This document shows positions 4,897 through 33,708 of a stretch of DNA of 33,708 nucleotides, one piece after another. This DNA comes from a virus. The notes under the pieces are model-generated. The model saw only the letters and a program-made list of their open reading frames with translations. It ran no database searches and was not told where the DNA came from. Location: positions 1 through 33,708 of the IMG/VR virus record IMGVR_UViG_3300028563_000053; one strand, written 5' to 3'. Positions within the stretch are counted from its first letter, which is position 1. Every line of letters starts with the position of its first letter. Position numbers and translations under genes: made by a program.

Positions 4897-4905
4897 CCAC
4901 CAACC
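4897..4905 (+). repeat. CCACCAACC leader repeat, copy 1
   Basis: The nine-base CCACCAACC lies between the coiled-coil gene and bet, 18 bases before the bet ATG and just ahead of its GAAAGGA ribosome binding site. Identical copies occur at 6273-6281 and 7783-7791 in the next two intergenic gaps. Confidence 0.6.
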
Positions 4906-4923
4906 CCCGAAAGGATTTTCAGC

Positions 4924-6270: not shown

Positions 6271-6272
6271 AC

Positions 6273-6281
6273 CCACCAACC
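6273..6281 (+). repeat. CCACCAACC leader repeat, copy 2
   Basis: An identical nine-base element in the 33-base gap between bet and the ParB-like gene, 22 bases before the ATG and ahead of an AAGAGGAA ribosome binding site. Confidence 0.6.
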
Positions 6282-6303
6282 AATCCTCAAGAGGAATTCC
6301 ATC

Positions 6304-7764
6304 ATGCAATCAATTCAGAATGTCGCCCTCGACAAGCTCCGCTTCGGCCATGAATTCAAAGGCGGCTCGCTTAATGTCCGGCAATCCGGCCGCGATGATG
6401 TTGACGCCCTGATCGCTTCCATCAAGGCCGAGGGGCTGCTCCAGCCTCTCGCCTCATGGGAGCGTGAAGGCGTTTTCTATATCTTAGACGGCAACCGCCG
6501 CCTGGCCGCGCTGAAAAAGATCGGCAAGCCAGTGCCGGAGAATTGGCTGCATGTCATCGAGGCCGACAGTATCGAAGACGCCCAGGCGAAGAGCTTGGCG
6601 GCCAACATCATGGCCGTGCCGCTCGATCCGGTTGACCGCTTCGAGGCCTTCGCCTCTCTCCAGCCGAAGTTCACCGCCGAGCAGATCGCGGCGCGATATG
6701 GCACCACGAAGAAGCTGGTCGAGCGCAGCCTCATCCTCGCAAAGCTCTCGCCGACGATCAGGACGGCGCTCCGCAAAAACGAGCTCGATTACGAGGCCGC
6801 CTGCGCCTTCACCATCGAGCCCGATCCGAAGCGCCAGGAGGCCATCTTCAAGAAGCTGAAGGCGCGCGGAAACTGGTGCCTGCGTCGCTATGATATCCGC
6901 GAGGCAATCACCGGCGATCAGGATGATATCGCCGGCATGTTGAAATTCGTCGGCGCCGCGGCCGCCAAGGAGGCGGGCGTGACGGAAGTGGACGATCTAT
7001 TCGCCGAAAAGGGCGACGCGCCCAAAGTGGTGCAGAATGTCGGCGCGCTGGAGAAGCTCGTCCAGGCGAAGATCAGCAGCACGAAGAGCAAGCTGCTGGC
7101 CGAGGGCTGGGGCAGCGTGGTGATGGAAGACAGCCTCGAATATGGCTGGGAGCGTTGGGCCCGCTCGCCGGCAGCAAAGGGCGCCGATCGCAAGAAGCTC
7201 ATGGTGGTGCTGGAGCTCAAAGGCGGAGTTCTCAAGCAGCATCTGGGCCTCCATAAATCGAAGCAGCGCGTCGCCGTCGAGCAGAAGGCCGAGAAGAAGA
7301 AGGCCAGCCCGAACGCGCTGAGCAATGCGCTCAAGGAGCGGCTGGAGTACGTTCTCATCAAGGCCACCCGCACGGCGATCTTGAACGAGAGCTGGAAAGA
7401 CCCCCGGGCGGCCATCTTCACCGCGATCGTCGCTGCGGATATTGACCGCCATCGCTTCATCCAGCAGATGCCAACCTATTTGGGCTCGAAGCTGGCCAGC
7501 ATCCGGGACTCAATATCGGCCGATGTGATGAAGGCGGCGCTGCTCAAGCACTTCGATCCGAAGGACTACTTCCCGCGCGCCCCCAAGGGCGTGGTGCTGA
7601 AGGCGATCGCGGAATCCCTTGTCCAGGCCCCGGCCGATCTGAAAACGAAAACCAAGGCCGTGATCTGGAAATTCGCCATCGCCCATGTCGGCAAGACCGA
7701 ATGGTTGCCGCCTGAGCTGCGCACCGCCCACTATGCCGCCAAGAAGGGCGCGAAGAAGCGCTGA
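6304..7764 (+). CDS. ParB/Spo0J-like protein
   Basis: A 486-residue protein with a clear ParB N-terminal fold. NVRQ at 24-27 begins the segment, DVDALIASIKAEGLLQPL follows, and YILDGNRRLAAL at 59-70 corresponds to the nucleotide-binding GxRR box of ParB, a CTP-dependent DNA clamp (here D-G-N-R-R). A NIMAVPLDPVDRFEAF segment at about 101-116 and a helix-turn-helix near 124-150 (TAEQIAARYGTTKKLVERSL) complete the family pattern. The C-terminal 300 residues are not typical of ParB and include a very basic stretch near 320-340 (EQKAEKKKASPN). No ParA ATPase is adjacent. Genes on either side (Bet, HerA-like) point to DNA handling rather than plasmid-type partition, though partition of an extrachromosomal prophage is possible. 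Confidence 0.85.
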   Translation: MQSIQNVALDKLRFGHEFKGGSLNVRQSGRDDVDALIASIKAEGLLQPLASWEREGVFYILDGNRRLAALKKIGKPVPENWLHVIEADSIEDAQAKSLAANIMAVPLDPVDRFEAFASLQPKFTAEQIAARYGTTKKLVERSLILAKLSPTIRTALRKNELDYEAACAFTIEPDPKRQEAIFKKLKARGNWCLRRYDIREAITGDQDDIAGMLKFVGAAAAKEAGVTEVDDLFAEKGDAPKVVQNVGALEKLVQAKISSTKSKLLAEGWGSVVMEDSLEYGWERWARSPAAKGADRKKLMVVLELKGGVLKQHLGLHKSKQRVAVEQKAEKKKASPNALSNALKERLEYVLIKATRTAILNESWKDPRAAIFTAIVAADIDRHRFIQQMPTYLGSKLASIRDSISADVMKAALLKHFDPKDYFPRAPKGVVLKAIAESLVQAPADLKTKTKAVIWKFAIAHVGKTEWLPPELRTAHYAAKKGAKKR

Positions 7765-7805: not shown

Positions 7806-8174
7806 ATGAAACGCTTTTCCATCCTCGCCGCCTGCCTCCTGCTCTCCGGCTGCGTCGGCTCTCCCGCTCAGAACTACGTCCCGGCGATCGATCTTCAGGG
7901 CGTCGATATGAGCCGCTACCAAGCCGACTTGAAGGATTGTCAGGGCTACGGCGCGACCCATGATCCGGCCAGGGCGGCGGCGAACAGCGCCATCGCCGGC
8001 GCGATTGTCGGCGCTCTCCTCGGCGCCGCGATCGGGGGCGGCCGCATGGTCGCGACTGGCGCGGCGATCGGCGGCACGGAAGCCGGCGCCGCCGGCGGAG
8101 TGCGGGCGGCCGAGACAGCCCAGCTCGTAGTTCAACGCTGCATGGCCGGCCGCGGCTACCGCGTGTTGGATTAG
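7806..8174 (+). CDS. Outer-membrane-type lipoprotein with glycine zipper
   Basis: A 122-residue protein with a lipoprotein signal peptide: MKRF, a hydrophobic core, and the lipobox Leu-Ser-Gly-Cys with the lipidated Cys at 16. The following residue is Val, not Asp, which favours outer-membrane delivery. Residues about 55-100 form a Gly/Ala-rich glycine-zipper segment (AIAGAIVGALLGAAIGGG) able to insert into or line a membrane. Two further cysteines (in DCQGYG and QRCMAG) could form a disulfide. It sits between the ParB-like and HerA-like genes. Phage lipoproteins expressed early often mask receptors or block entry of related phages, so superinfection exclusion is the leading guess; a tie to the HerA-like ATPase is also conceivable. 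Confidence 0.8.
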   Translation: MKRFSILAACLLLSGCVGSPAQNYVPAIDLQGVDMSRYQADLKDCQGYGATHDPARAAANSAIAGAIVGALLGAAIGGGRMVATGAAIGGTEAGAAGGVRAAETAQLVVQRCMAGRGYRVLD

Positions 8175-8177: not shown

Positions 8178-10031
8178 ATGAGCAAAACGGCGATCCCGGA
8201 CGAGGCCCTCGACGATCGGCTGGGCTTCGTCGGCACCAGCGGCAGCGGCAAAACCTACGGCGCGAAGGGGCGCGTCGAGCGCCTCCTCAAGCTGGGCCAT
8301 CGGGCGGTGATCGTCGATGCTCTCGATGTGTGGTGGGGGCTTCGCCTTTCGCCGGATGGCAAGAAGGCCGGCTTCGATGTGGCGGTGCTGGGCGGCAAGC
8401 ACGGCGACATGCCGATCAACGAGCATTCGGGCGCCCTGATCGGCGAGGCGGTGGCCACCAGCTCGGAGAGCTGCATCGTCTCGCTCGGCGGGATGAAGAC
8501 GCAGGCGGCCAGGCAGCGCTTCATGCTGGCCTTCCTCGACGCCGTTTATGAGCACACCGATCCCGATCGCGGCGATCCCTATCATTTCGTGGTGGATGAG
8601 GCCGATCTTTGGGCGCCGCAAAAGCCCATGGGGAATGAAGCGATGCTCTGCCACTTGATGGAGGAGATCGTGCGGCGCGGCCGCGTGAAGGGCTTCATCC
8701 CTTGGGTGATTACCCAGCGGCCGGCGGTCATTAACAAAAACGTGCTGAGCATGGTGGACGGGCTTATCGCCTTGAAGCTGACCAGCTCGCAGGATCGCGA
8801 CGCGCTCTGGGCGTGGGTCGAGGGCCAGGGCGATCGGCAGGAGGGAAAGGCGATGATCGCCCAGCTCCCGGCGCTCCAGCGCGGCGAAGGCATCATCTGG
8901 ATACCCAGTCGCCACATTCTGAAGACGGCGCAATTCCCGGAGAATTCGACCTTCGATAGCTCGCGCACCCCGAAGCGGGGCGAGAAGAAGATCGACGCCA
9001 AGCTCCAGCCGCTCAATATCGAGGCGCTGAAATCCCGGCTCGTCACCGTCGAGCAGGAGGCGAAGGCGAACGATCCCAAGTCCCTCAAGATCAGGATCGC
9101 CGAGCTGGAGCGCGAACTGGCGAAGGCGTCCATCCCGAAGGGCGGCTTAAAGGAAATCGATCATGGCATGATCTTTGCCGCCGCCCAGGAGGCGCGCGCG
9201 ATCGGCCGGGAGGAAGGCTTCCTCGTCGGCCACCATGTCGGCGCCGGACTGGCTGGAGTGGTCGGCAAGTGGATGCGCGAGAGCATCAAGGGGATCGGCG
9301 ATCAGCTCAACGGCCGGCTGGACGAAGGGATCGCGCTCGCCCAGGCGCAAGAGTTTACCGAGGAGCAGGCAGGCTTTGCCGGTGTCGGCGGCGAGGCGGT
9401 GCTCAAGAAGCTCAGGAAGGGCCTGATCGTCGAGAAGGGCAGCGAGCGGGCGAAGCTCTTGTCGGCCGCTCCAGCCGCGCCGGCTCCGCGCGCCGCTACC
9501 GACCGGATGCCGCTCCCGGTCCGGGCCGCCCCGCCGCCCGCCGCCATCGATCCCGAGCTCGGCCGGGCAAAGCAGGCGATCCTCGATGCTCTGGCATGGT
9601 GGGAAAGCATCGGCCGCCACGCGATCGATAGAGTGGTGCTGGCCTTCCTGATCGGCGTTTCCAACAAGAGCTCAGGGCATCAAAACAACCTCGGCGCCCT
9701 CCGCACCGCCGGCCTGATCGAATATCCCCCAGGCGGCGGCATGGCGGAGCTCACGCCGGCGGGCCGGGCCAAGGCCAACCCGCCCGAGGCGGTGCTGGAT
9801 TCCGCCGCCCTCCAGCAGCGCATCCTCGGCAAGCTCAACCCGCCCATGCGCGCGATCGTCGAGCTGCTCCTCGATGGCCGCGAGCGATCGAAGGATGAGC
9901 TGGCCGAAGAGCTGGGCGTCTCGGCGAAATCCAGCGGCCACCAAAACAATCTCGGCTCACTTCGCACCATGGGCTTCATCACCTATCCCAAAGCCGGATC
10001 GGTGGTGATCGGCTCTTCCATGTTTATCTGA
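8178..10031 (+). CDS. HerA-like ATPase with duplicated C-terminal winged helix
   Basis: A 617-residue P-loop ATPase of the HerA/FtsK/VirB4 superfamily. Walker A is GTSGSGKT at 19-26. Walker B is HFVVDEADLW at about 136-145 with the paired Asp-Glu, followed by RRGRVKGFIPWVITQRP at 166-182, where Arg181 is a candidate arginine or sensor residue typical of HerA. A helical, coiled-coil region at about 280-320 links to an unusual C-terminus containing two similar winged-helix-like units (about 463-527 and 545-610). Both carry the decapeptide KSSGHQNNLG (497-506 and 584-593) followed by (A/S)LRT. HerA proteins translocate along DNA ends and usually work with the nuclease NurA in recombination, or power DNA pumping; no NurA is visible here. 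Its start is three bases after the lipoprotein stop. Confidence 0.85.
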   Translation: MSKTAIPDEALDDRLGFVGTSGSGKTYGAKGRVERLLKLGHRAVIVDALDVWWGLRLSPDGKKAGFDVAVLGGKHGDMPINEHSGALIGEAVATSSESCIVSLGGMKTQAARQRFMLAFLDAVYEHTDPDRGDPYHFVVDEADLWAPQKPMGNEAMLCHLMEEIVRRGRVKGFIPWVITQRPAVINKNVLSMVDGLIALKLTSSQDRDALWAWVEGQGDRQEGKAMIAQLPALQRGEGIIWIPSRHILKTAQFPENSTFDSSRTPKRGEKKIDAKLQPLNIEALKSRLVTVEQEAKANDPKSLKIRIAELERELAKASIPKGGLKEIDHGMIFAAAQEARAIGREEGFLVGHHVGAGLAGVVGKWMRESIKGIGDQLNGRLDEGIALAQAQEFTEEQAGFAGVGGEAVLKKLRKGLIVEKGSERAKLLSAAPAAPAPRAATDRMPLPVRAAPPPAAIDPELGRAKQAILDALAWWESIGRHAIDRVVLAFLIGVSNKSSGHQNNLGALRTAGLIEYPPGGGMAELTPAGRAKANPPEAVLDSAALQQRILGKLNPPMRAIVELLLDGRERSKDELAEELGVSAKSSGHQNNLGSLRTMGFITYPKAGSVVIGSSMFI

Positions 10032-14532: not shown

Positions 14533-14859
14533 TTAAGAGGTTGCGGCGGCCGCCTGCTTGGCCTTGATATCGGCCATGAGAGTTTCGTAGGCCGATTCCT
14601 CGCCCACCGCATAGGCGTCGAGCTCGGTCTGCGTCGGCGGCGTGCTGCTCTGGAACTGAGCGTAGAGCTTCTCGGCCTCCGGGATGCCGGCCTCGATGCC
14701 CTGGGCGATCTTCACGCCGATGGCGATCGCGGCGCCGGAGCCGGGGAAGGCGACGCCAAGCACCGTCTCAAGGACGGGCAGCGCGTCGGAAAGAACGGAG
14801 ACGGCTTGGTCGAGCTCGGAGGGGGCCGCGGCGGCGGCCTGGGTGGCGGGATCGCTCAA
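14533..14859 (-). CDS. Small Ala-rich protein of the lysis region (108 aa)
   Basis: Read from TTG at 14859, which overlaps the upstream stop as TTGA; AAGGAG lies eight bases before it, inside the end of the lipoprotein gene. The sequence has an Ala/Leu helical start, a moderately hydrophobic Gly-rich segment (LETVLGVAFPGSGAAIAIGVKIAQGI, about 30-55) and an amphipathic, acidic C-terminal helix. The hydrophobic segment is marginal for membrane insertion. No family recognised. Position between a lipoprotein and a tail-anchored protein suggests a lysis or virion accessory. Confidence 0.6.
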   Translation of the reverse strand: MSDPATQAAAAAPSELDQAVSVLSDALPVLETVLGVAFPGSGAAIAIGVKIAQGIEAGIPEAEKLYAQFQSSTPPTQTELDAYAVGEESAYETLMADIKAKQAAAATS

Positions 14860-15242
14860 TGGGAAACTCCTTGCAAGGTGGCGTAGCTGTTGTAAGCGGC
14901 GAGCGCCTCGTTGAAGGCGGCCAGCGCGATCGCGGTCAGCGCGCTATTGCCGGAGCTGTTCGCCTGCTCGGCCTTGACGAGGGCGTTGTGGACGGCCGGC
15001 ACCAGCACGCTCAGCTCGGAGAGCACCGCCGGGCTGGGGTTGCCGTTCTTGACATAGAGATCGAGCGCCTTCTCGGCGAGCGTTGTGGCCTGGGCGGCTT
15101 CGGCGACCGTCTTCGCCTGCGTCGGCGATGCGCCGCTGGTGGCGACCACCACATCGGAGACGGCGCTGCTGAACCATGTGCAGCCGGAAAGAGAGAACGC
15201 GGCGGCGAGGGCCAGGCCGGCGACGAGGGTCTTGAGGCGCAT
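14856..15242 (-). CDS. Lipoprotein of the lysis region
   Basis: A 128-residue protein with a lipoprotein signal peptide: MRLK, a hydrophobic core, and lipobox Leu-Ser-Gly-Cys with the lipidated Cys at 21. The next residue is Thr, so sorting to the outer membrane is expected. The mature part is Ala-rich and helical (AEAAQATTLAEKALDLYVK and a second helix near the end), without other cysteines. In lysis cassettes an outer-membrane lipoprotein is often the outer spanin, but spanins are usually Pro-rich or short, so this assignment is weak. Similar Ala-rich helical lipoproteins occur near alphaproteobacterial phage lysis genes. Confidence 0.75.
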   Translation of the reverse strand: MRLKTLVAGLALAAAFSLSGCTWFSSAVSDVVVATSGASPTQAKTVAEAAQATTLAEKALDLYVKNGNPSPAVLSELSVLVPAVHNALVKAEQANSSGNSALTAIALAAFNEALAAYNSYATLQGVSH

Positions 15243-15556: not shown

Positions 15557-16084
15557 TCAATGCCCGTCAACAGACCAGTGCGGCGCGTCGGCCGGCAGCT
15601 TTATGACGCCGAAGCTGGCCCCGATCGGCCAAAGATCGGCCTGGGCGGCGCAGGAATGAACGATCCCGCGCGCATCGGCCACCCGGATGGAGCCCTTCCA
15701 TGAAACCGTCATGTCGATCGCCTGCCGCTTGGTGTGCTGGCTTACGAGCGCGGCAGGATAGGCGATCCCATACCCCTCCTTCATGGCGGTGGCCGCCAGC
15801 CTGGCGCCGGTGTAATCGCCGGCATGGGTCCAGTCGATATCGACGCCGGCGAGCACAGGCACATCGGCCGGCTGCACTTCGCCGCTGGCGATCATGCAGC
15901 ACCAGTGCATGAGGAAGGCCCGCTCGCTCGGCCGCCATGTCGCCCCGATCGAGATGGCGGCGCCGGCGCCCTCCAGCGACGCGATGAAGGAACGGACGCT
16001 ATTCTGGAAGGGCTGGGCCAGATCCTCGATCGCCGCGCTGCCGGGGAAGCGAGGGCACCATTGCGGTCCTGAGAATTCCAGCAT
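15557..16084 (-). CDS. Endolysin, M15-like zinc peptidase
   Basis: A 175-residue protein with features of LAS/M15 peptidases (VanY/D-Ala-D-Ala carboxypeptidase fold) used as phage endolysins. SQHTKRQAIDM at 115-125 gives the zinc ligands His117 and Asp124, and PHWSVDGH at 168-175 supplies the third His (169) with a terminal His-x5-His arrangement. A helix with WRPSERAFLMHW at 50-61 is shared with a set of alphaproteobacterial phage lysins. No signal peptide is present, so export would rely on the holin. TAGGAG precedes the ATG by about seven bases. It lies between the tail-tip gene and the holin candidate. Confidence 0.78.
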   Translation of the reverse strand: MLEFSGPQWCPRFPGSAAIEDLAQPFQNSVRSFIASLEGAGAAISIGATWRPSERAFLMHWCCMIASGEVQPADVPVLAGVDIDWTHAGDYTGARLAATAMKEGYGIAYPAALVSQHTKRQAIDMTVSWKGSIRVADARGIVHSCAAQADLWPIGASFGVIKLPADAPHWSVDGH

Positions 16085-16093
16085 GTCGCGCTC

Positions 16094-19000
16094 CTAGTTA
16101 TAGATGAAGGTGGCGGTGGCCACGCCGCCGTCGCCGGGGACGTTACCAGAACCGCCGCCGCCATCGGCGCCGCCGCCGCCCGAGCCGCTCCCTGATCCGC
16201 CGCCGGCGCCAACGCTGCCAACGCCACCGGGTGTGCCGGCTGCGCCGCCAGTCTGCACCGAGCCAGTCGGCACGGCCGTGCCGGTTTGCGTCGCTGTCCC
16301 GCCGGCGCCAAAGCCGGCCGCCACGGCGCCAACGCCGCCATGGCTGGTCAGCGTGAGCGTGCCGGCATGGATCGGGCCCGTCACGGTCGAAACGACGCCG
16401 CTGGTCCCGGTGGTATTGGTGCCCAGAGCGCCCGGCCCGGCCGCGCCCAGGGACCAATTCAAGCTGCCCCCATTATCGAAAGCCGGCGTGAGAGGATAGG
16501 TGACGTCATTGAGGCCGCCTTCGCCAGAGCCGCCGCCCCATGTGGTGCCATCGCCGCAGGCGCCGGCGGCGCCGGAGCCCTGAAGAAGTATCTGCACGGA
16601 AGTCGCGCCGGCGGGAATGGTGTCGGTTCCGGTGAGAGCTGCTCCCCCAACCGCGCCCATATAGCTCCGCGTGACAGGGAAGGCGGGCGTGCCGCCGCTG
16701 ATATTCAGGTTGAAGGTGGCGAGGTTGCCGAGCTGGAAGGAAATGTCCTGAGCGGCGATGACGAAATCCCAATTCCCGGGCCCGACCGCGGCCGTGGTGG
16801 CGGCGGTGGTGCGGCTGGCCGTGCTCAGCAGCGTGAAGCCGGTCGGGAAGACATTGCCGTGCGGCCCATAATAGATGTTGTAGCCGCGCACCGAATTGAA
16901 GGGCAGATCAATCCAAGTCAGGTTGACCACGTTGCCGCTCTGCGTCGCGCCGAAGCCGGAGACGGCTGGGAGCTTCGGGGGCGCGCCCAGGGTGATCGTA
17001 TAGGGCGAAACATCGCTCAGGCTTTGCAGGCCGCCGCCGCGATTGTTGATCGCCAAGATTTTGAAATACATCGTCTGCCCGACCTGATCGGGCGTGAAGG
17101 GGATGCGGCCGAGGAGGGCGTCGATCTTGACGAAGGGATCGCCGGTCAGATGGCCGACGATCGCCGAGCCCTGCTGGCCGCGCCGCAAATAGGTTGTGAG
17201 GTCGTAATGGTTCGCCGAGGTCAGCGTCGCCGTCGAATAGCTGACATACTCGAGCCCGGCCGCGCCGCCCACCATGCAGACGGTGTTGCCCTGATCCGCG
17301 TCGGTATTGCTCCCGCTCCCCAGCTCGCCCGCGCTCTGGGCGAGATTGACGGAGAGCGTGTTGACGCCATCGGGATCGGCGCCGGCCGGGAAATTGGCCG
17401 TGAGGAGGCCCATGGTGGTGGCGCCATTCACGGAGTCGATCAGCTTGTAGGGGCCGCCGGAATCGCTGGCGCCCCAGATTTGCGCGCCGCCGAAGATCGC
17501 CGGGCTGCTCCCGGAAATCGCCACGCCCATTTCGAGGCCTTGGTTGGTGGCCAGCGCCGGCGGAATGGCGAAGACGATCGGATCATTCACATCGCCCGGG
17601 TCCACATCAAAGTCCGGATCGAAGCCGCTGCCTGGCTTGAGCGTGAACTGCGCCGGCAGGCCCGCGCTATCGACGAAAATCTCGGCGGTGCAATCGAAGC
17701 CGCCATCATCGCGCTCGTCGATCTGGGTCAGCCGCACCGGAATGCGGGTGATGCCGGGGAAGTTCGGATCGGTGACAGTCTCGAAATCCATCGGGTCGAA
17801 AAGGACATATCGCGGATCGACGGAGAATTTGGCGGTGTTGCTGATCGCCTCGTCTTGGAGCTGGAGGAAGGCGCTGGTGTTGGCCGCATTGAGGTCGCAA
17901 AACATCTGCGCCGAAGCGGTGCCCTGCGGCGAGCGCTCCCCATATTGCTGGCGATGGGCCATATCGAAGGCGGTGGCCTCCGCCGGCGCGTACTGATTGG
18001 CGCGATCGAGGCAATCGAGGCGAAAGGTGTTGACCTGATCGAGGATGTTCTTGCGGCTGATCTGGACCGGATCGTTGCCCGTCTCGATAAAATCGTCATA
18101 TCCAAGATCGAAGTCGGGCGCGGTGTCGGGCGTGAAAGTGTAGCCATTCGCGGTCAGGGCATTGACGCTGCGCGGGATGAACTGGATCACGCCTGAGGAC
18201 TCGACCACATCGGCATAGGTGTTCGTGACAATCTCGTCGATCATCGAGCTCGCATTGGTCTGCGAGCTATAGGCGGGGGAAATCCAGAGCCCCAGCGCCA
18301 GCGATGAGTTCTGATATTTGGTCAGCGCGACGATCGAGGCATATCGGACATGTGGGTGCGTGCCGGAGAGCGAGCTGTGGAAGGTATATTCGCCCGTTGT
18401 CTCGTTGAAGGCATACTCGGTGGCGGCCGCCGGCACGCCGGCGACGCATGTCAGGAGGGCGCCCGCGGCGTTGGTGGCATTGATGTTGAAAAGGAAGTTC
18501 GGGACCGTCACCTTGTAGGGCGCGCCCGGCACTGTCACGGCATCATTGACGGTCGCCACATCGCCCACATCGCCGGCCTGAAGGCCAGCGCCCTCGATCG
18601 GATCGGTGAGCAGGAAGGCGACGATCAGGCTGGGATCGGCATCGCCGCCATTCTGGCATCCGTTGCCGCCATAGGTGCCCGGCGCGCTGCCGGCGAATAT
18701 CCAGCCGCCCTCGAAATTGTAGCTCGGGATATTGGCCGAAGTGCCGAGATTGGCGTCGGGCACGCCCAGATAGGCGATCCCGCTGTAGCCGATCGCCTCG
18801 GTCGGATGGTTGGAGACGAGGAAGCTCCAGGGCGATTGCCCGATCAGCCCGTCGAATAGGCTGAAGGGCGCGTAGCCAGCTTGGAGGGTCTGGGAAATCC
18901 AAGTGTTGTAGATGTTCGCGATCCCGCTCGGGCCGCCTGAGCTGAGCCCGTAAGCGAAGCTGGCGAGATACTGCGTTTGTGATCCAGCGCCGCCGCCCTT

Positions 19001-19219
19001 GCCGCCGCCGCCGATGATGCCGCCCTTGCCGCCGCCGCTGCTGGGATTGTTGACGGTGATGGATTTAAAATCACCATACCAAAGCAGATTGCCCGCCTGG
19101 CGCGATGTGCCGAAATAAAGCGGGATGCAAATGCCATAGACCGAAGACTGGATCGGCATCTTCGTGAGCGTTGGCGGCGCGGTGGTTTTGAGGCTGGTCC
19201 CAGCTCCGAAGAACGCCAT
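16094..19219 (-). CDS. Tail tip / host-specificity protein J-like (1041 aa)
   Basis: A large central tail-fibre protein at the place of lambda gpJ, after the NlpC/P60 gene. The N-terminal 600 or so residues have the composition of the phage tail hub family: beta-rich with few charges, including an early Gly-rich loop at about 61-80. A fibronectin-type III-like unit lies at about 750-850 (LPAVSGFGATQSGNVVNLTW ... RGYNIYYGP). The last 170 residues are a Gly/Ala/Thr-rich repeat-like region ending in long GGGGSG runs and an FIYN terminus, resembling the Gly-rich domain of phage adhesins, which pack as polyglycine II helices. The role is building the tail tip and binding the host. It starts one base after the preceding stop region. 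Confidence 0.85.
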   Translation of the reverse strand: MAFFGAGTSLKTTAPPTLTKMPIQSSVYGICIPLYFGTSRQAGNLLWYGDFKSITVNNPSSGGGKGGIIGGGGKGGGAGSQTQYLASFAYGLSSGGPSGIANIYNTWISQTLQAGYAPFSLFDGLIGQSPWSFLVSNHPTEAIGYSGIAYLGVPDANLGTSANIPSYNFEGGWIFAGSAPGTYGGNGCQNGGDADPSLIVAFLLTDPIEGAGLQAGDVGDVATVNDAVTVPGAPYKVTVPNFLFNINATNAAGALLTCVAGVPAAATEYAFNETTGEYTFHSSLSGTHPHVRYASIVALTKYQNSSLALGLWISPAYSSQTNASSMIDEIVTNTYADVVESSGVIQFIPRSVNALTANGYTFTPDTAPDFDLGYDDFIETGNDPVQISRKNILDQVNTFRLDCLDRANQYAPAEATAFDMAHRQQYGERSPQGTASAQMFCDLNAANTSAFLQLQDEAISNTAKFSVDPRYVLFDPMDFETVTDPNFPGITRIPVRLTQIDERDDGGFDCTAEIFVDSAGLPAQFTLKPGSGFDPDFDVDPGDVNDPIVFAIPPALATNQGLEMGVAISGSSPAIFGGAQIWGASDSGGPYKLIDSVNGATTMGLLTANFPAGADPDGVNTLSVNLAQSAGELGSGSNTDADQGNTVCMVGGAAGLEYVSYSTATLTSANHYDLTTYLRRGQQGSAIVGHLTGDPFVKIDALLGRIPFTPDQVGQTMYFKILAINNRGGGLQSLSDVSPYTITLGAPPKLPAVSGFGATQSGNVVNLTWIDLPFNSVRGYNIYYGPHGNVFPTGFTLLSTASRTTAATTAAVGPGNWDFVIAAQDISFQLGNLATFNLNISGGTPAFPVTRSYMGAVGGAALTGTDTIPAGATSVQILLQGSGAAGACGDGTTWGGGSGEGGLNDVTYPLTPAFDNGGSLNWSLGAAGPGALGTNTTGTSGVVSTVTGPIHAGTLTLTSHGGVGAVAAGFGAGGTATQTGTAVPTGSVQTGGAAGTPGGVGSVGAGGGSGSGSGGGGADGGGGSGNVPGDGGVATATFIYN

Positions 19220-25002: not shown

Positions 25003-25755
25003 TTATGCCGCTTCGGCGAAGGACATGGTGCCGAGCTGGCCGGTGGTATCGACGGCCGACATGAAGCCAAAGGTCGGCTTGGTGTAATCGTCCAGCTTGG
25101 TGGCCAGGCCGGTATCCGTCGCGATGTTGTTGTTGAGGGTGAGCACGGACTGTTCCGTTCCCCAAACGAACTGCATCACGGCGGTGAAGTTGCCGATCTT
25201 TCCCATCGGCTGATTGGTGATCGTCACCAGCTCGCCCGGGGTGGCCACCGTGTATTGATAGCTGATCGCCACCGGCGTGTTGGCATCGGCCGCCGCGAAG
25301 GTATAGGTGCCGGCAGCGACCGAATACTGGCCAGTGACGGGGCCCGCGGCGACGCGGACCATCATCAAGCCAGTGGTCAGATTGCGGACGCCGAGGTTGA
25401 CGGTCCATGTGCCGGCATTCGTCACCGCCACGGTATAGGGGCCAGCGCCCGGGATGGCCTGAAGCTCGCTGTTGGCGATATTGATCTGGCCAGCCACGCC
25501 CGTCACGCCGAAGAGAAGATCGGCGAACATGCGGGCATTGAGCGTGCCCATCGTCACCTTGCCGGAGATTTCCATCGTGCCAGAGCAAACATCCTCGGCG
25601 AGCTGGTTTTCGCCGAAGAGCGACTTGCCCGAGCGCTTGAAGTCGATCGATTGATCCTGCGGCACGGAGAAGCGCGTCGGCGTCGGCACCACCACGTTGT
25701 TGATGCCGAAGAAGCGCCCGGCGGCGAAGGCCTTCTGGCCATTAACTGCGGTCAT
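25003..25755 (-). CDS. Major tail tube protein
   Basis: A 250-residue beta-rich protein with the expected place and composition of the tail tube subunit: upstream of the G/GT chaperones and the tape measure. It begins with FGINNVVVPTPTRFSVPQDQS, continues with the tube-like KVTMGTLNARMFADLLFG, and then has Val/Thr/Gly-rich strands (GPYTVAVTNAGTWTVNLGV, VTGQYSVAAGTYTF) that may form an added Ig-like or loop domain. It has one cysteine and low charge. AAGAGGA lies upstream of the ATG. Subunits polymerise as hexameric rings around the tape measure. Confidence 0.82.
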   Translation of the reverse strand: MTAVNGQKAFAAGRFFGINNVVVPTPTRFSVPQDQSIDFKRSGKSLFGENQLAEDVCSGTMEISGKVTMGTLNARMFADLLFGVTGVAGQINIANSELQAIPGAGPYTVAVTNAGTWTVNLGVRNLTTGLMMVRVAAGPVTGQYSVAAGTYTFAAADANTPVAISYQYTVATPGELVTITNQPMGKIGNFTAVMQFVWGTEQSVLTLNNNIATDTGLATKLDDYTKPTFGFMSAVDTTGQLGTMSFAEAA

Positions 25756-26466: not shown

Positions 26467-26994
26467 TTATCGAGTCCCCAGCGATGAGCCCAGAATTACG
26501 TCATCGACGATCGCGCGCATCCCGTTATTGAACGGGCCGAGCTGGCGGGCGAGCGCAAAGCGCATGTAAGGGTGCTCCGGGATCGGGATCGGGTGCGGCT
26601 TGGTCTTGCGGGTAAAGACCATCGTGCCTTGCTGGATGCCGCCTGAGAAGCCCCCGCCATTGCCGACGAAGAAAGCCTGAAACTTGTCGGAGCCGGGGTG
26701 CTGGATAACGCCCCCCTCCTCCTGAATTCTGGCGTAGGGAATGGCGATGCCATCGATCCAAACGACGCCGCTGATCCGGCCGGCCGTCTCTTCCTGCATT
26801 TGAGCCTGGACGGCGTTATACATCGGCCCTTCGCCGGTGCGGAACATCGAGAGGATGTTGGACTTCACGCCATCGCGGAGGGCGAGCGTTTGGTCGGCTA
26901 TGAAGCCGCGCATCCGGGTTTGTATTTCCGGCGCCAATCCCATGAGGTTGACCATCGCCTCGCGCGCACCGATGAGAACCGCCCGGATCGGCAT
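26467..26994 (-). CDS. HK97 gp10-like / neck protein
   Basis: A 175-residue protein resembling HK97 gp10-type neck or minor tail proteins. Residues 20-60 are helical (EIQTRMRGFIADQTLALRDGV), followed by a segment (SGVVWIDGIAIPYARIQEEGG) matching the family's G-x-(V/I)-x-x-x-x-(P)-Y-A-x-x-x-E-x-G-G pattern, and a basic C-terminal region that includes HPIPIPEHPYMR. Gp10 proteins join the connector to the tail terminator. The ATG overlaps the connector stop (TAATG). Placement between connector and terminator supports the call. Confidence 0.8.
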   Translation of the reverse strand: MPIRAVLIGAREAMVNLMGLAPEIQTRMRGFIADQTLALRDGVKSNILSMFRTGEGPMYNAVQAQMQEETAGRISGVVWIDGIAIPYARIQEEGGVIQHPGSDKFQAFFVGNGGGFSGGIQQGTMVFTRKTKPHPIPIPEHPYMRFALARQLGPFNNGMRAIVDDVILGSSLGTR

Positions 26995-27836
26995 TAGATC
27001 GGCGGCGTCTCGTTGCCCGATTGCGACACCGGGATTTCGTTATCGTCCATGCCGATATTGAACTGCGGCGTGACGCGATCGGGATTGAGCTCCTGAAGGA
27101 GCTTGTCCGACTGGCTGATCCCGCCGGCATAGGGCATCGCGCCGGCGCCGGTGAGGAGCGCCTGATTGTCATACTCGATCGCCGCCTGCCGATAGGCGCG
27201 GGACCGGGCGCTGAGCGTGGTGCGGAGGTCGCGATCGACGGTATCGGCTTCCCGGGCGAACTTGGCGGCCAGGCTCCGGCAGAGCACGGCGGCGGCGCCA
27301 TAGGAGGAGGAGCGAAGATTGATCGCGTGCAGGATTTCCGGGTCCGTGAACTGCTGATCCTTATAAACCGTGTCGCCGATCAGGAAGCGCACGCTGTCCT
27401 TGGCGCACAGGCGCGGATCGCCGGAATAAGTCCAGAGCGGCGACTGGCGCACCGAAAGGCGGCCGATCTGGCTGGTGGCCACCTGATCGTCCAGCGTCGT
27501 GAGCCGGATCGAGTAGATGTAGAAGGCCATGAGCGCGGCCGTCTCAGCCGCGGTCAGGATGAGCTTGAACTGGCCAGAGCTGCCATCGCCAACCACCGTG
27601 ATGCCGTCGCCGACCGTCTTGGTGATGACGGCGGCGCTTTGAAGATCGCGCTGGATCGTGAAGGCGATGCCGAGGGTCGAAAGATTGACGGGCTCGGGCG
27701 GATCATCGCCGTTCTGGACGGTGAAGAAGAAGCAAACGGAGTCGCCGGTAAAGAAGTTGATATCGGCTTCCGTCACCGCGACGAGGAGCCCCGCGGAGTT
27801 CTGGAAGAAGAAAAAGAAGATCGGGCCGGTTGCCAT
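26994..27836 (-). CDS. Ig-like domain fused to head-tail connector (gp6-like)
   Basis: A 280-residue protein that seems to combine two modules. Residues about 25-132 are a beta-sandwich-like domain (GDSVCFFFTVQNGD, VNLSTLGIAFTIQRD, then SGQFKLILTAAETAALM and YSIRLTTLDD), resembling the BppU-like/Ig-like domain common in phage structural proteins. Residues about 138-235 look like a head-tail connector of the HK97 gp6 type: VRFLIGDTVYKDQQFTDPEILHAINLR, then a helix with AAAVLCRSLAAKFAREADTV and an RSRAYRQAA segment. The N-terminus has an odd Phe run (IFFFFFQ). Connectors form the ring on which the tail assembles. A frameshift artefact merging two genes is the alternative, but the frame is continuous. 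Confidence 0.75.
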   Translation of the reverse strand: MATGPIFFFFFQNSAGLLVAVTEADINFFTGDSVCFFFTVQNGDDPPEPVNLSTLGIAFTIQRDLQSAAVITKTVGDGITVVGDGSSGQFKLILTAAETAALMAFYIYSIRLTTLDDQVATSQIGRLSVRQSPLWTYSGDPRLCAKDSVRFLIGDTVYKDQQFTDPEILHAINLRSSSYGAAAVLCRSLAAKFAREADTVDRDLRTTLSARSRAYRQAAIEYDNQALLTGAGAMPYAGGISQSDKLLQELNPDRVTPQFNIGMDDNEIPVSQSGNETPPI

Positions 27837-28295
27837 TTAGGCGAAGAAGCCGGCCGCGAAGTGGCCAGTTGCGATCGTGCTGAAAAGCTGGATGGCCCCG
27901 AGATAGGCGGGCGAGCCGCCATCGTCCCACTTGCCGCCGGGATAGTCCTGAGCCCCGGCCGGCTCCAGCCACACCACCGCGCCGCCGTCGAATGTCAGCC
28001 TCAGAGGGGCCACATCGAGGTTCTGCACATAGCGGCGCTTGGCGGTCGGCTGGTCAGGAAGCGTCGCTGCCCCGGCAACGAGAGCGCCTGATCCATCCAC
28101 TGTGCCAGCCGTTGCGGTGGCCGGGCTGAAAGAGACCGGCAGGCGGTAGCCTGGCGCATCATCGACCACAACCTCGGAGCCATCCGGCCCCCACGCCATG
28201 AGGTTGATGACGGAATAAACGCTGCCGGCGACGCGGGCCCAGAATGTCGGGCCCGTTCCGATTTGTGCGCCAGCTTCAACGCCTGTTTTCGGCAT
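27837..28295 (-). CDS. Structural protein, probably decoration-type (152 aa)
   Basis: A 152-residue Gly/Ala/Val/Asp-rich beta protein with no charged helices, starting after AGGAG at a nine-base spacing. Segments such as YVQNLDVAPLRLTFDGG followed by WLEPAGAQDYPGG match the general pattern of phage decoration or attachment domains (short strands, a V-Q-N start, P-G-G turn). It lacks a signal peptide, unlike the two genes upstream of it in transcription order. It stands between the fibre and the connector fusion. The call is based on composition and context. Confidence 0.55.
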   Translation of the reverse strand: MPKTGVEAGAQIGTGPTFWARVAGSVYSVINLMAWGPDGSEVVVDDAPGYRLPVSFSPATATAGTVDGSGALVAGAATLPDQPTAKRRYVQNLDVAPLRLTFDGGAVVWLEPAGAQDYPGGKWDDGGSPAYLGAIQLFSTIATGHFAAGFFA

Positions 28296-28310: not shown

Positions 28311-31300
28311 TTAGCTGGCTTTGCGGAGGGTGGCGTGGATCGGCTGAGGATTGTCGTTCGCAGCCTTCATCTTGAGCACGATGGCCGTCAAGGCCTCGAC
28401 CTTGGCGCTGAGCTGGGCGCTCGCCTTGAGCTGGCCCTGGAGCTGGGCGATCTGCGCGCCCTGCTTCTTGACCGTCGCCTCCAGCGCCGTGATCCGGCCG
28501 TCCTCGACCGCCTTAAGCGAGTAGAGGTCTTTGACGCCCCAGAGAGCGAGGAAAGCGAACGGCTCAGAGGCGGCGTGCCATAGGTCGTTCTTTTCCTGCG
28601 GGGGGGTAACGGCCCATCTTAGAGCCGCCGGCAGTGACGTATAAGCCTGCTGTGCGAAGACGCCAAAACGACGCTCGGAAGGTCCGGTTTTTTGTATGTT
28701 CTGGTAGCGGTCGAACTCCGAAAGGTCGAGCGCTGCAATAGATTTGCGATACTCAGATTGATCCATTGCGCGCCTGATCTTTGTCCGAGCGTCAGAGATC
28801 GTCCCGTAGGTTCCGGTGATGTTGAAGGTTGATCCGGTCTGAGTAGCCTCAAGAACGGCGGCGCCACCGCCCTCGTAGAGCTTCCAAAAATTGTTGCCGG
28901 TGCCCTGATAGAAAACATACGTTCCGTCAGAGATACCAAAGGCGTATTGGCCTCCCGTAACGTAGAGTTTGTTTGTTGGGGTCGGAAAGGTCGTGGCGCC
29001 GATCAAAACACCGCCCGATGAATAAATTGTCCCCGCGCCAGTATTCGTCGTGCCGCCGACGAGGAAGCTGCCGTCAGTGCCAAGGTGAACCTTCTCGAAG
29101 CCATTGATATATAGCTTGATCGGTGCGGCAACATTTGTGCCAATCCCAATTCCATTCGTCCCCGTCGTTTGGATAGAGAGGCTGTCAACGATATTCAGTC
29201 CTGTGCCGCCGCTGCCCGTACCCCAATGAACCATATAGCTGTCTGTTGAGCCATTGTTGGCATGGAAACCAGCGTAGGCATTTGCGCCTGAACTTGTATT
29301 TATGGTTTTAAATTCGGTCGCAGCAGTTTGGTTGATCGTCTGTGTTACCAAACCGCTGAAGGTTGCCGCCGGCGCTGCGATAGTGCCAGTGAATGTTGCC
29401 GCCCCCGACGAGAAAGAACCGTCTGCACCACCCGCGCCGTAAACCTTTAGATTGTAAGATGTTTGCGAAGCCGGCGCGCCTCCAATACTGACCGTCGAAT
29501 TACCGCCATTCGGGTTCCACAAGATCGTGGTGTAGCCGCCATTGCCTTTCAGGATATTGTTGTCAAATTCTACTTGACCGCTAAACGTCGCCGCCGCCGC
29601 CGTCAGCGTCCCGGTAGTGGTCGGGCTGGCCGAGAACATGAAATTGCCGGTGCCCGTCGCTCCCGTGCTGGTCACACCCTCGAACGTGGTGTGGCCGGTG
29701 ACCGAAAGGGTGCCACCCAGCTTGGTTGCGCCGGCACCGACCCAAAGCGCATAGGGGTTGGTGATTGTGACGCTGCCGGCGGCGAGCGGCGCGTTGTCGA
29801 TATAGAGCGAGGCCGCGCTGTCGATCGTGACGGCCGAGCCATCGGTGATCGTCGGCTGATAGATCGAGAACTTGTTGAAGCCCTTCGCCGTGGTGATGTG
29901 CGTGGTGCCGGTGACGGTGGTGGTCGCGCCGGTAACGTCCACATCATCGAGCGTGGCCGAGGCGGATGAGGCGATCGAGCTGGAGGCATTCGCCACCATC
30001 TGGGCCGTGCCGGTCAGGATGCCGGAGAAGTTGGCGGTCGCGGCGGTGAGTGTGCCCGTCAAAGTCTGATTGGCGGAGAAGAGCAGGTTGCCCGTTCCGC
30101 TGGCGCCGGTCGGGGTGACGCCCTCGATCGTGGCATGGCCGGTGATATTCGGCGCATTGATGGTGGGCGTGGTCAGCGAGCCGTTGGTCGCGAAGACGAG
30201 GTTGCCGGTGCCGGTCTTGCCGGAGGCCACCGCCGTGTAGAAATCCGCGCCCGCCCCGCTGTTGAGGAAGGTCGCCATCCCCGCCGCCAGGCTGGAGACG
30301 CAGGAGCTGATCGAGCAGGCGGTGGCGTTAGTCAGGGTCAGCGAGGAGGGCGTGCCGCCCGCGCCATTGAACAGCACCGGGGCGCCGGCCGAGCCGACAT
30401 TGACCGCGAGCGCGGTCCCCACGCCGGTGCCGAGCCCTGTCAGGCCGCCGATCGGAAGGCCCGTCGCATTGGTCAGCGTGATCGAGGCCGGCGTGCCATA
30501 GGCGTTCGCGCCGCTGAAGGTCAGGGCGCCGGCGAGCGTCGAGCTGGAGGCGCCCAGCGCGATCGTGGTCGAGCCGATCGTGACGCTGGAATTGGTCAGC
30601 GACGCGTTGGCGATATTGCTGAGCGTGTTGCTGGAGCCGCTAATCGCCTTATTGGTCAGCGTCTGCGATCCGGTCAGCGTGGCGACGGTGCTGTCGATCG
30701 CGAACTGATTGGCGGAGAGCGTGAGGCCGGTGCCGGCGCTGTATTCGTTGACTCCCGCGATCTGGCCGAAGGTGATGTTTGTGACGCCGACCGTGATCGC
30801 GCTGGTGTTGGTATTCGTCCAGGCGGAGTTCTTCCAGAGCGTGCCGTTCTGGATGAAATAGGTCGAGGAGAGGATCTGCACCCCGGTGGTTGAGTCGGCG
30901 CAGCGCGTCCAGGCGCCGGCCGCCGAGACATAGCAGCCGTTGGTGGTCTGATCGGTTTCCGCCATGGCCAGCACGCGGCTGGCGCTGGTGAGCTGGCCGT
31001 CGATCGTCTGCTCGCCCGAGAGCGTGATGTTGGCCGTGGTGCGGACGAAAACCGCCTGCTTCCACTGGATGCCATTGAGGGCGTTGGTGACGAAATTATA
31101 AACCGCGCTCTGAGTGGGGATGCGCGTCGCGCTCTGGGCCGCCAGCGCCGGATCATTGTCCACCACATTGGCCGCGAACATGGCCGTGGTCAGATTGGTG
31201 ATCGAATTGTTGCTGGCGTTGATGCCCTTGTTGGTGAGCGTCTGGGAGCCCGAAAGCGTCGCCAGCGTCGCCACATCGCTCAGATCGGCCGAGGAGAGCA

Positions 31301-32429
31301 CCACGGCGCCGGTCCGGCCGGCGACGGTGGTCACATTGGCGGTCAGCGCGCCGCCGGAGAAGCCCAGCCCGGCGCCCACGGTGACGTTGGAATTCCCGCC
31401 CGCCCCGTTGCCATAAAGGATCGAGGAGCCGGAAGTGGCCGGGTCATAATCGACCCCGGCCGTGGTGTTGGAGAAGCCGCCCGCGCCGTTGCCCTTCAGG
31501 ATGGCCGAGCCGGAGGTCGCCGGGGCGTAGTCCGTGCCGCTGAGGGCGGCGGAGACGGTGCCGGCGGTTGCCTTGAGCAGGCCGGTCAGGCTGGCCGCGC
31601 CGCCCTGGGCGGCCGCCAAGTGCCCGCTGGTGATGTTGGAGGCGTTGGTGGTGTCCGTGGTCGCCGAGGCGGCCAAGCCGCTCACATCGCTCGCGGCGGG
31701 CTGGGCCTGAGCGACCGAGCCGTCCGTCCCGATTTGGGTAAGGAATTGATGGGAGACGGCCGCGAGGCTCTTGACGCCGCCCAGCGTGGTGGCGGCCGGG
31801 TTCGGCAAACGGGCGGCCGGGACCGTGCCGCTGGCCAGCGCCGAGGCGTTGAGGCTGGTCAGGGCGGCGCCGCTCAGGGCCGGGATATTGACCAGCGTGG
31901 TCGCGATCGAGCCGGCCGATGTGGTGACGTCGCCGGTCAGCGCCGGGAAGCGGGCGGCCGGGACCGTGCCGGTGATCAGATCGGTCGCCGAGCCGCTGGT
32001 GGCGATCGCCGCGAGCGTGGCGGCGCAGCCGGTGCTGCTGTCCGAAAGATCGGCGCAAGCGGGGCGCGCCTGGCCGACGCTGCCATCGGCCGTGAGGATC
32101 GAGGTCAGGAAGTTGTGCGAGACGGCCGCCTTGGAGAAGACGCCGCCAAGGCTGGCGACGCCCGGCAGGGGCAGGCGCGCGGCGGGCACGGTGCCGGTGG
32201 AAAGATCGGAGGCGCTCCCGCTCGTCGCGATCGGCGCCAAGCCCGACACATCGCCGGCCGCAAGGCTGATCGATCCGCCCAGCGCAACGGCATGGGTGGA
32301 GATCGTGATTTGCGGGTTGGCGATGAAGCTGTTCGGGACCGGGACCGGGATGGCCTGCTTCAGGCCGGCCGAGCTGGCCGGGAGGGCCAGCGCCAGCAGC
32401 GCGAGTGCCGGGATGAGGAGCTTTTTCAT
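28311..32429 (-). CDS. Giant exported fibre with C-terminal S74 chaperone domain
   Basis: A 1372-residue fibre. It opens with a classic Sec signal peptide (MKK, hydrophobic stretch, cleavage likely after ASSA near residue 21). The long body is Thr/Ser/Gly/Ala-rich with degenerate repeats, such as GTVPAARLP three times, GSQTLTNK twice, KGNGAGG/YGNGAGG, and a paired 41-codon unit. The C-terminal 170 residues match an S74 intramolecular chaperone: ISDARTK (the auto-cleavage serine), GVFAQQAY, an FLALWGVKDL helix, and a coiled coil (EATVKKQGAQIAQLQGQL), which trimerises the fibre and is cut off. An alternative start at 32438 adds three residues. The DNA for roughly 28620-29570 is clearly poorer in GC than the rest. 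Such fibres bind receptors; export of a virion fibre would be unusual. Confidence 0.85.
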   Translation of the reverse strand: MKKLLIPALALLALALPASSAGLKQAIPVPVPNSFIANPQITISTHAVALGGSISLAAGDVSGLAPIATSGSASDLSTGTVPAARLPLPGVASLGGVFSKAAVSHNFLTSILTADGSVGQARPACADLSDSSTGCAATLAAIATSGSATDLITGTVPAARFPALTGDVTTSAGSIATTLVNIPALSGAALTSLNASALASGTVPAARLPNPAATTLGGVKSLAAVSHQFLTQIGTDGSVAQAQPAASDVSGLAASATTDTTNASNITSGHLAAAQGGAASLTGLLKATAGTVSAALSGTDYAPATSGSAILKGNGAGGFSNTTAGVDYDPATSGSSILYGNGAGGNSNVTVGAGLGFSGGALTANVTTVAGRTGAVVLSSADLSDVATLATLSGSQTLTNKGINASNNSITNLTTAMFAANVVDNDPALAAQSATRIPTQSAVYNFVTNALNGIQWKQAVFVRTTANITLSGEQTIDGQLTSASRVLAMAETDQTTNGCYVSAAGAWTRCADSTTGVQILSSTYFIQNGTLWKNSAWTNTNTSAITVGVTNITFGQIAGVNEYSAGTGLTLSANQFAIDSTVATLTGSQTLTNKAISGSSNTLSNIANASLTNSSVTIGSTTIALGASSSTLAGALTFSGANAYGTPASITLTNATGLPIGGLTGLGTGVGTALAVNVGSAGAPVLFNGAGGTPSSLTLTNATACSISSCVSSLAAGMATFLNSGAGADFYTAVASGKTGTGNLVFATNGSLTTPTINAPNITGHATIEGVTPTGASGTGNLLFSANQTLTGTLTAATANFSGILTGTAQMVANASSSIASSASATLDDVDVTGATTTVTGTTHITTAKGFNKFSIYQPTITDGSAVTIDSAASLYIDNAPLAAGSVTITNPYALWVGAGATKLGGTLSVTGHTTFEGVTSTGATGTGNFMFSASPTTTGTLTAAAATFSGQVEFDNNILKGNGGYTTILWNPNGGNSTVSIGGAPASQTSYNLKVYGAGGADGSFSSGAATFTGTIAAPAATFSGLVTQTINQTAATEFKTINTSSGANAYAGFHANNGSTDSYMVHWGTGSGGTGLNIVDSLSIQTTGTNGIGIGTNVAAPIKLYINGFEKVHLGTDGSFLVGGTTNTGAGTIYSSGGVLIGATTFPTPTNKLYVTGGQYAFGISDGTYVFYQGTGNNFWKLYEGGGAAVLEATQTGSTFNITGTYGTISDARTKIRRAMDQSEYRKSIAALDLSEFDRYQNIQKTGPSERRFGVFAQQAYTSLPAALRWAVTPPQEKNDLWHAASEPFAFLALWGVKDLYSLKAVEDGRITALEATVKKQGAQIAQLQGQLKASAQLSAKVEALTAIVLKMKAANDNPQPIHATLRKAS
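29581..29703 (-). repeat. Fibre internal repeat, distal copy
   Basis: Encodes the 41-codon unit starting GHTTFEGVTSTGATGTGN and ending TLTAAAATFSG. It is a copy of the unit at 30024-30146, differing at scattered positions. It suggests that the fibre shaft grew by duplication. Confidence 0.6.
30024..30146 (-). repeat. Fibre internal repeat, proximal copy
   Basis: Encodes GHATIEGVTPTGASGTGN through TLTAATANFSG, the partner of the unit at 29581-29703. Confidence 0.6.
31811..31830 (-). repeat. 20-bp exact direct repeat in fibre gene, copy 1
   Basis: Identical 20 bases are found at 31952-31971; both encode the GTVPAARxP motif of the fibre shaft. A diverged third copy of the motif is near 32175-32195. 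Confidence 0.65.
31952..31971 (-). repeat. 20-bp exact direct repeat in fibre gene, copy 2
   Basis: The second copy of the repeat at 31811-31830, encoding TGTVPAARFP. Recombination between the copies would delete 141 bases (47 codons) in frame. Confidence 0.65.
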
Positions 32430-32431
32430 GT

Positions 32432-32902
32432 TTACCATTTCGCAAAGCCGGTGACGATCGGCGCGCCGGCGATGCAATAGATCGCCCCGCTATAGCCGGT
32501 GAAATCGTAGGAGCTGCCCTGAGGGATCGGGAAGCCGGTGCCGGTGGTGACGCCCGAGGTCTTGCCCCAATAAACGACGCCGGTCGCCAGATTGTTGATG
32601 AGCTCGCGATGGATCGCGGCCGTGTCGCCATTGGCTACCAGTGTGGCCGATGTGCCGCAGCTTATCTGCGTCGGGGCGGTGGAATCGTTGCTCGTCTGTG
32701 GAGTGATCCAAACCGGCAAGCCGGTGGCGCCGCACGCGCCCGCCGTGAAGTTCGGGCTCGATGCCGGGTTGTAGCAATAGAGGATCGAGCGGCCGGGCGG
32801 CCACGCCGTGGTGAGCGGAATGCTCGCCGGCTGCGCCATCGCCGGGATGGTCGCGCCCAGGATGAGGAGGGCGGCCACGAAGAAGCTGCGGAAGGATTTC
32901 AT
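32432..32902 (-). CDS. Exported small virion-type protein with four cysteines
   Basis: A 156-residue protein with a Sec signal peptide (MKSFRSFFVAALLILGATIPAMA, likely cleaved after AMA near residue 23). The mature part is a beta-rich domain with four cysteines (in ILYCYN, GACGAT, ISCGTS and IYCIAG), positioned to make disulfides once in the periplasm. It has the look of small phage structural domains (SATLVANGDTAAIHRELINN, then YSGAIYCIAG ... W). GGAG precedes the ATG by nine bases. The stop TAA is three bases ahead of the fibre ATG, so the two are probably translated together. It may be an adaptor or partner of the exported fibre; that is inference. Confidence 0.75.
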   Translation of the reverse strand: MKSFRSFFVAALLILGATIPAMAQPASIPLTTAWPPGRSILYCYNPASSPNFTAGACGATGLPVWITPQTSNDSTAPTQISCGTSATLVANGDTAAIHRELINNLATGVVYWGKTSGVTTGTGFPIPQGSSYDFTGYSGAIYCIAGAPIVTGFAKW

Positions 32903-32966: not shown

Positions 32967-33708
32967 TTAGAGCTCGAAGGCCGAGACGCTCAAGTTCGCC
33001 AGGCCGATATGCGAGGCGTTGGCGACCGCCTTCGCCGCCAAATCGTACCAATAGGCGGTGCCGAGCGTAAGCCCGGTCACAACCACCTGCATCGAGAACG
33101 GCGTGAACACATCGGCGGCAACGACCGTCGCCGGGTTGGTGTATTCGAGAATGTTGCCAACCTGCGTTCCGGCGAGCGCCGCATTGCTGCCCGGCGCGGC
33201 GCCGGTTCCATACGAGAGCTGCGCCAGAATGCCGTCGCCGGCGGTGGTGACCGAGCTGATAAGATTGCCCGAGATCATCAAAACCACCTTGCCCGACTTG
33301 TTCGGGGTGATGGCGCCGGCAATGCCCTGCATCGTGAAGGCCGCGGTGCTGTTGGGCGCGGTCGGATTGGCCGGCTGCGCCTGATAAGTGGCAGCGGCCG
33401 AGGCGATCGAGGCGTTCCATTTGCCGGCGACCGTGCTCCACATAACGACCGTCTGACCCGGGGCCAGCCAATAGGCGGTGGCCGTGGCGACGCCGTTGAT
33501 GGTGTCGGCGCCTGCTCCATAGACGGCGCAGCCTGCCGCGCCATTGTTCGTGATGACAGCAACGCCACCACCCCCAGCCGGCGGAGCGAGAACGCTATCC
33601 AGCGCCGTCGCGCAAACCGAAATGGTGTTGATGTTGGCCACAAGCGGGAGAGCGGCCGCCTTCGTGCCGCCGGCATGAGCGGTCAGCGCATCGGCAGAGG
33701 AGAACACC
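32967..33708 (-). CDS. Virion-type protein, C-terminal part (cut by window edge)
   Basis: An open frame of at least 246 codons runs off the right edge; the apparent GTG at 33707 is probably internal. The sequence shows two beta-rich modules common in phage structural proteins. The first (VCATALDSVLAPPAGGGG, then GCAVYGAGADTINGVA and WLAPGQTVVMWSTVAGKW) resembles a widespread phage decoration/attachment repeat with an internal V-Y-x-x-G-x-D-x-I-N-G signature. The second (TMQGIAGAITPNKSGKVVLMISGNL to AYWYDLAAKA) resembles a jelly-roll or C1q-like receptor-binding head. It is followed by a 64-base gap before the exported protein. Capsid or fibre-associated role is inferred; the N-terminus (and any signal peptide) is not visible. 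Confidence 0.7.
   Translation of the reverse strand, partial: VFSSADALTAHAGGTKAAALPLVANINTISVCATALDSVLAPPAGGGGVAVITNNGAAGCAVYGAGADTINGVATATAYWLAPGQTVVMWSTVAGKWNASIASAAATYQAQPANPTAPNSTAAFTMQGIAGAITPNKSGKVVLMISGNLISSVTTAGDGILAQLSYGTGAAPGSNAALAGTQVGNILEYTNPATVVAADVFTPFSMQVVVTGLTLGTAYWYDLAAKAVANASHIGLANLSVSAFEL

Follow-up and report, generated by a model that had tools for sequence, protein, structure and literature searches.

Results

Two adjacent genes with predicted Sec leaders

The stretch analysed here (the window) is an IMG/VR fragment, positions 1 to 33,708 of viral record IMGVR_UViG_3300028563_000053, and this study concerns two adjacent genes within it, encoding a long fibre and a protein of 156 amino acids (aa), each predicted to begin with a Sec signal peptide, hereafter called the leader (Table 1). 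Both open reading frames (ORFs) are real, with high third-position GC and a place in one operon with phage structural genes. The fibre starts with MKKLLIPALALLALALPASSA^GLKQ; its cleavage site is uncertain, since an AxA-like motif (SSA^G) places the cut by eye after residue 21 and the rule-based scorer after residue 15. A second possible in-frame ATG lies at 32438. The 156-aa protein starts with MKSFRSFFVAALLILGATIPAMA^QPAS. It has the four cysteines counted in an earlier reading of this DNA, here called the original prediction; they stand at 43, 57, 82 and 143, all in the mature part. The fibre has six cysteines.

Leaders were called with a home-made rule-based predictor (not SignalP). PhoA, OmpA, Bla, MalE and a lipobox leader all passed it as controls, whereas LacZ did not. 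Both window proteins have a positive n-region, a hydrophobic h-region and an AxA-type c-region at a plausible N-terminus, and score as signal peptidase I (SPase-I) signals about equal to or above PhoA, Bla, MalE and OmpA, in agreement with the textbook Sec signals of the original prediction. The false-call rate on spurious shadow ORFs ranged from 1.1% (first start) to 2.9% (any start), N-terminal shuffles of the two proteins were called at 5-7%, and none of 1268 internal fibre windows was called as a leader. In two close pairs of leader-bearing genes, the leader codons differ by 11 synonymous and 3 non-synonymous changes; a third pair has 7 and 11, respectively, and a fourth 0 and 1. Leaders are kept, moreover, across diverged leader-bearing clades. 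Because of the synonymous excess in close pairs and this persistence, the leaders appear to be translated and selected, and their presence under selection is, as far as sequence can tell, well supported.

The 156-aa protein matches phrog_30212 (E 1.2e-10, function unknown), and this match together with the gene position is the reason for labelling it virion-type. DNA and protein searches among annotated phages gave it no convincing neighbours, and a single-sequence structure model reached a predicted local distance difference test score (pLDDT) of 37.5, with no usable fold. For the fibre, annotated-phage neighbours cover an internal module only, residues 387-596, which match known fibre and decoration modules. 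At its C-terminus the SDxxxK catalytic motif (as defined in PMC10769870) is present as SDARTK, and PF13884 aligns over it at the right place, with 15.8 bits, below the cut-off of 22; hhalign of the fibre C-terminus against three S74-type C-termini was not significant. The S74 chaperone of the original prediction thus keeps its motif, and the domain label, weakly supported, is likely but not established.

Table 1 Features of the window discussed in the text (positions in the 33,708-nucleotide record)
Feature	Position	Strand	Remarks
Fibre ORF	28311..32429	-	1372 aa; ATG at 32429; predicted Sec signal peptide
Predicted Sec/SPase-I leader of the fibre (MKKLLIPALALLALALPASSA)	32367..32429	-	Cleavage most likely after residue 21
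Fibre residues 387-596	30642..31271	-	Module common to many leaderless phage fibre/decoration proteins; homology match
Possible Peptidase_S74 chaperone	28623..28796	-	SDxxxK motif (SDARTK), then coiled-coil-like tail; PF13884 15.8 bits
156-aa protein	32432..32902	-	Predicted Sec signal peptide; four cysteines in mature part; phrog_30212
Predicted Sec/SPase-I leader of the 156-aa protein (MKSFRSFFVAALLILGATIPAMA)	32834..32902	-	Rule-based scorer
Upstream slot protein	32967..33707	-	No leader; cut by window edge; MQRFKGKI family, same slot in relatives
152-aa protein	27837..28295	-	No leader; between fibre and connector
Head-tail connector-like protein	26994..27836	-	Downstream slot border; phrog_1732, phrog_1084; relatives
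Major-tail-protein-like gene	25003..25755	-	Used to find relatives; phrog_8234
Tail-tip protein	16094-19219	-	Phage-tail_3 and Rcc01698_C domains; domain match
Lipoprotein	7806-8174	+	LSGC lipobox; glycine-zipper-like stretch
Lipoprotein	14856-15242	-	LSGC lipobox

Leaders come and go in two families from related phages

Since the pair lacks divergent homologues in which leader conservation could be tested, relatives were sought through backbone genes. A capsid alignment search retrieved 80 viral loci (numbered with the prefix L) and two contigs from metagenome-assembled genomes (MAGs) with a related capsid gene, one of Acetobacteraceae and one of Acidobacteria. In the slot between capsid and connector genes, leader-bearing proteins were found in L106, L107, L122 (179 aa and 614 aa), L129, L132/L133, L134, L135, L143, L150 and L180. 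Within the same capsid lineage, a small leader-bearing protein of another family lies upstream of the capsid gene in L151 (6573-7016), L152 and L160 (2799-3240).

One slot family is a jelly-roll of about 139 aa located directly upstream of the connector (AlphaFold pLDDT 90.8), whose model matches small phage proteins and also, though weakly, a capsid chain from phage Carin1. After further search, a leader was called in 16 of its 72-73 distinct members, and in the aligned set the leaderless members start where the mature part of the leader-bearing ones is predicted to begin, give or take a few residues. The family occurs in 1 of 397 genomes of the order to which the Acetobacteraceae MAG belongs.

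L005, reached through the window fibre, is a phage fibre of some 1390 aa that carries a leader, an anchor domain, a collar and an S74 domain (35.9 bits), the last two both above Pfam cut-offs. Homologues of its anchor from phage isolates lack a leader and begin directly with the anchor. An anchor-domain search returned 93 ORFs, with a leader in 15 by rule and in 3 more by eye; the resulting tailspike/fibre family has 17-18 leader-bearing members (L005, L267-L270, L272 and others) among 80-82. Between the cleavage site and the first conserved anchor motif, leader-bearing members have a median of 16 residues; in leaderless ones the median, counted from the initial methionine, is 15. The window fibre itself has no N-terminal anchor domain of the LPxGKQxFxDxxGxPL type, which L005 and its relatives possess.

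The trees of the two families, which rest on 91-137 columns and in which parsimony cannot separate leader gain from loss, give 6 state changes for the jelly-roll (bootstrap range 4-6) and 8 for the anchor family (7-9), and a single leader-bearing clade is rejected by the approximately unbiased test (p 0.0105 and 0.0013, respectively). Predicted leaders have been repeatedly gained or lost at the mature end of homologous virion-type proteins in related phages.

Further observations concern the anchor family. The genes neighbouring the L268 fibre include an endolysin, and in L272 a second leader-bearing gene (8748-9848) directly follows the leader-bearing fibre. In L271 (5892-9591) the fibre, counted as leaderless, has LYA^QTAS just ahead of the domain and a short upstream start only; its leader is possibly degraded or frameshifted. 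Among 398 genomes of the phylum of the Acetobacteraceae MAG, no leader-bearing prophage fibre of this family was found; three leader-bearing hits there (L354-L356) were excluded as weak matches that resemble unrelated secreted proteins.

A leader-bearing relative of a protein found in virions

A search with the tail protein retrieved L042, which has two leader-bearing proteins, and L041, which has more (2381-7154 and 16027-18209): at least five lie on the upstream side of its tail genes and two on the downstream side, one of these two with a Laminin_G_3 domain. A 152-aa leader-bearing protein of L041 matches phrog_3758, annotated 'virion structural protein' (E 8e-16), and its tblastn matches include Milano gp127 and 7-7-1 000105, both leaderless. 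By mass (14,239 Da; the published values are 18 Da lower), 000105 corresponds to gp106, which mass spectrometry detected in the virion proteome of 7-7-1 with 51.7% peptide coverage (PMC3517404).

Discussion

Proposed export and assembly outside the cytoplasm

We propose that the fibre and its 156-aa partner are virion-type accessory proteins made with the late structural operon. The host Sec system would export both, and signal peptidase would cut off the leader, giving the N-terminus with which leaderless homologues are already made. Once mature, the two proteins would accumulate in the periplasm and attach to completed particles on their way out through the broken envelope, a decoration step outside the cytoplasm, around lysis. 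For the leader-bearing proteins, export and cleavage are expected from Sec biology, and we infer their virion location from the retained N-terminal domain, the operon position and the virion-proven homologue; if both hold, assembly outside the cytoplasm follows. That particles are joined at lysis is likewise inferred. We give the whole account, from Sec export through cleavage to the usual virion N-terminus to joining particles around lysis, a probability of about 0.5. Some tailed phages probably export fibre and decoration proteins while their particles are still incomplete. The wider proposal, that several tailed-phage lineages complete their virions outside the cytoplasm via Sec, and that this evolved repeatedly through fusion of leaders to pre-existing virion proteins, is put forward tentatively, at somewhat less than an even chance.

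Several points weigh against this account. Export of the leader-bearing proteins and their presence in particles are predictions from sequence, and the leader calls come from our own predictor. The window pair is without a divergent full-length homologue in the viral contigs and annotated phages searched. Every leader-bearing member found comes from uncultured phages, with none among the cultured phages or prophage homologues sampled. Finally, the periplasmic disulfides of the original prediction do not provide a general reason for export and were rejected as such: leader-bearing members are no richer in cysteine than leaderless ones in either the jelly-roll family (0.63 vs 1.02 per protein, p 0.10) or the anchor family (1.19% vs 0.95%, p 0.35). 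Extensive use of disulfides does occur in some phages, as Milano and 7-7-1 of Agrobacterium show.

Among the outcomes of export listed in the original prediction, the best fit is maturation outside the cytoplasm and assembly around lysis, since in leader-bearing tail fibres the cleavage site is followed at once by the same N-terminal domain that opens their leaderless homologues. The case for export is well supported, and on a broader basis than in the original prediction, by leaders that come and go in two other virion-type families, while the arguments from disulfides and from an odd gene position fail or weaken. Leaderless homologues had been set as a refuting case; they are real in other families, but are informative rather than refuting, given that forms with and without leader are both found and that the leader region shows signs of translation and constraint.

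The surface, decoy or exclusion role is retained as an alternative. Here the exported forms would act on the infected cell as periplasmic or surface fibres, as small binders that mask receptors or exclude phages, or as adhesins, forming an extended set of morons. With a leader added, an old virion protein might take on a new function, and related phages do carry moron-like lipoproteins near their tail genes. We consider this less likely than the account above, and keep it in view because the mosaic adhesive trimer (MAT) fibres of Bdellovibrio, which are real exported adhesins, show that a signal peptide, a fibre and S74 can together make a cellular adhesin (PMC10769870). Against it, the leader-bearing tail fibres retain the N-terminal domain of leaderless homologues with an unchanged mature end, the genes remain in the late structural operon, and no outer-membrane or surface-anchoring domain was seen, although no systematic search was made.

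The hydrophobic N-terminus could otherwise stay uncleaved and tether the protein to the inner membrane as the site of assembly. Some leaders do have uncertain cleavage sites, including the rule-based site of the window fibre, but in most leader-bearing proteins an AxA-type site, for which a pure anchor has no need, coincides to within a few residues with the start of their leaderless homologues, and we judge such tethering quite improbable. That the leader is merely untranslated sequence upstream of an internal start is suggested by weak ribosome-binding sites on some leader-bearing genes, the fibre included, and is the least credible alternative, given the synonymous excess in leader codons, the persistence of leaders across diverged clades, the shadow-ORF rate of only 1-3%, and a window fibre that has no internal ATG near its mature end and whose leader ATG stands two bases after the upstream stop.

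Relation to known systems

By analogy, the Bdellovibrio bacteriovorus MAT fibres are the nearest cellular parallel to the proposed export. They share a signal peptide, a phage-fibre-like trimeric architecture, often a C-terminal S74 with SDxxxK, and export (PMC10769870), and the window fibre shows the same succession of predicted signal peptide and fibre. In their published description, a conserved beta-rich domain of about 130 aa comes directly after the signal peptide (PMC10769870). MAT fibres are, however, cellular predator proteins, whereas the genes described here lie in a phage structural operon and related families have leaderless phage homologues. On the viral side, the tailspike/fibre anchor family of podovirus-like phages (Rhodoferax phage P26218, Pseudomonas phage PAE2, Vibrio phages) has the same N-terminal domain as the leader-bearing L005, L267-L270, L272 and others, although the isolate records examined lack a leader and the window fibre lacks the domain. 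The phrog_3758 virion proteins of 7-7-1 and Milano, both Agrobacterium phages, are homologous to the leader-bearing L041 protein, but are themselves leaderless.

PblA and PblB of Streptococcus phage SM1 are phage tail proteins that reach the bacterial surface, but their release depends on holin and lysin, and they are not known to carry a Sec leader. Lambda Bor and T5 Llp are phage-encoded morons exported by Sec. Lambda Lom is another (PMC12309495). These three differ from the proteins described here in not belonging to virion families. Searches of an open-access library gave no published case of a tailed-phage virion protein with a Sec leader, subscription papers and preprints being outside that scope. 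In the textbook view, tailed phages are assembled to completion in the cytoplasm and released afterwards. If Sec leaders have been joined repeatedly to virion-type proteins of several families, then either the last step of assembly would take place outside the cytoplasm or virion parts would be reused on the host envelope, and the matched homologues with and without leader make the question directly testable.

Genomic context and other exported proteins

The longer record IMGVR_UViG_3300028577_000013, 99.94% identical to the window over 18.7 kb, places a major capsid protein (phrog_1005, E 1.4e-84) upstream of the pair, with two genes between. The gene order is capsid, 166-aa gene, leaderless slot protein, 156-aa protein, fibre, 152-aa protein, connector and tail genes, so that the pair lies within the late structural operon between capsid and connector genes. 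This confirms the position given in the original prediction, which is not strange: in leaderless phages the stretch from the capsid to the connector or baseplate genes commonly holds variable genes of fibre-like or decoration-like type. The location of the pair is ordinary; its leaders are not.

At the tail tip, Rcc01698-type and phiJL001 Gp84-type domains were found, a set that presumably points to an alphaproteobacterial siphovirus; Rcc01698_C is named after a gene-transfer-agent protein. The two lipoproteins that the original prediction had noted elsewhere in the window are present (Table 1). In related phages and prophages (L048, L050, L089, L090, L096 and L102), lipoproteins are inserted directly after the major tail protein and are probable morons. 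The connector-like protein (26994-27836, minus strand) starts with MATGPIFFFFFQN, an odd phenylalanine run.
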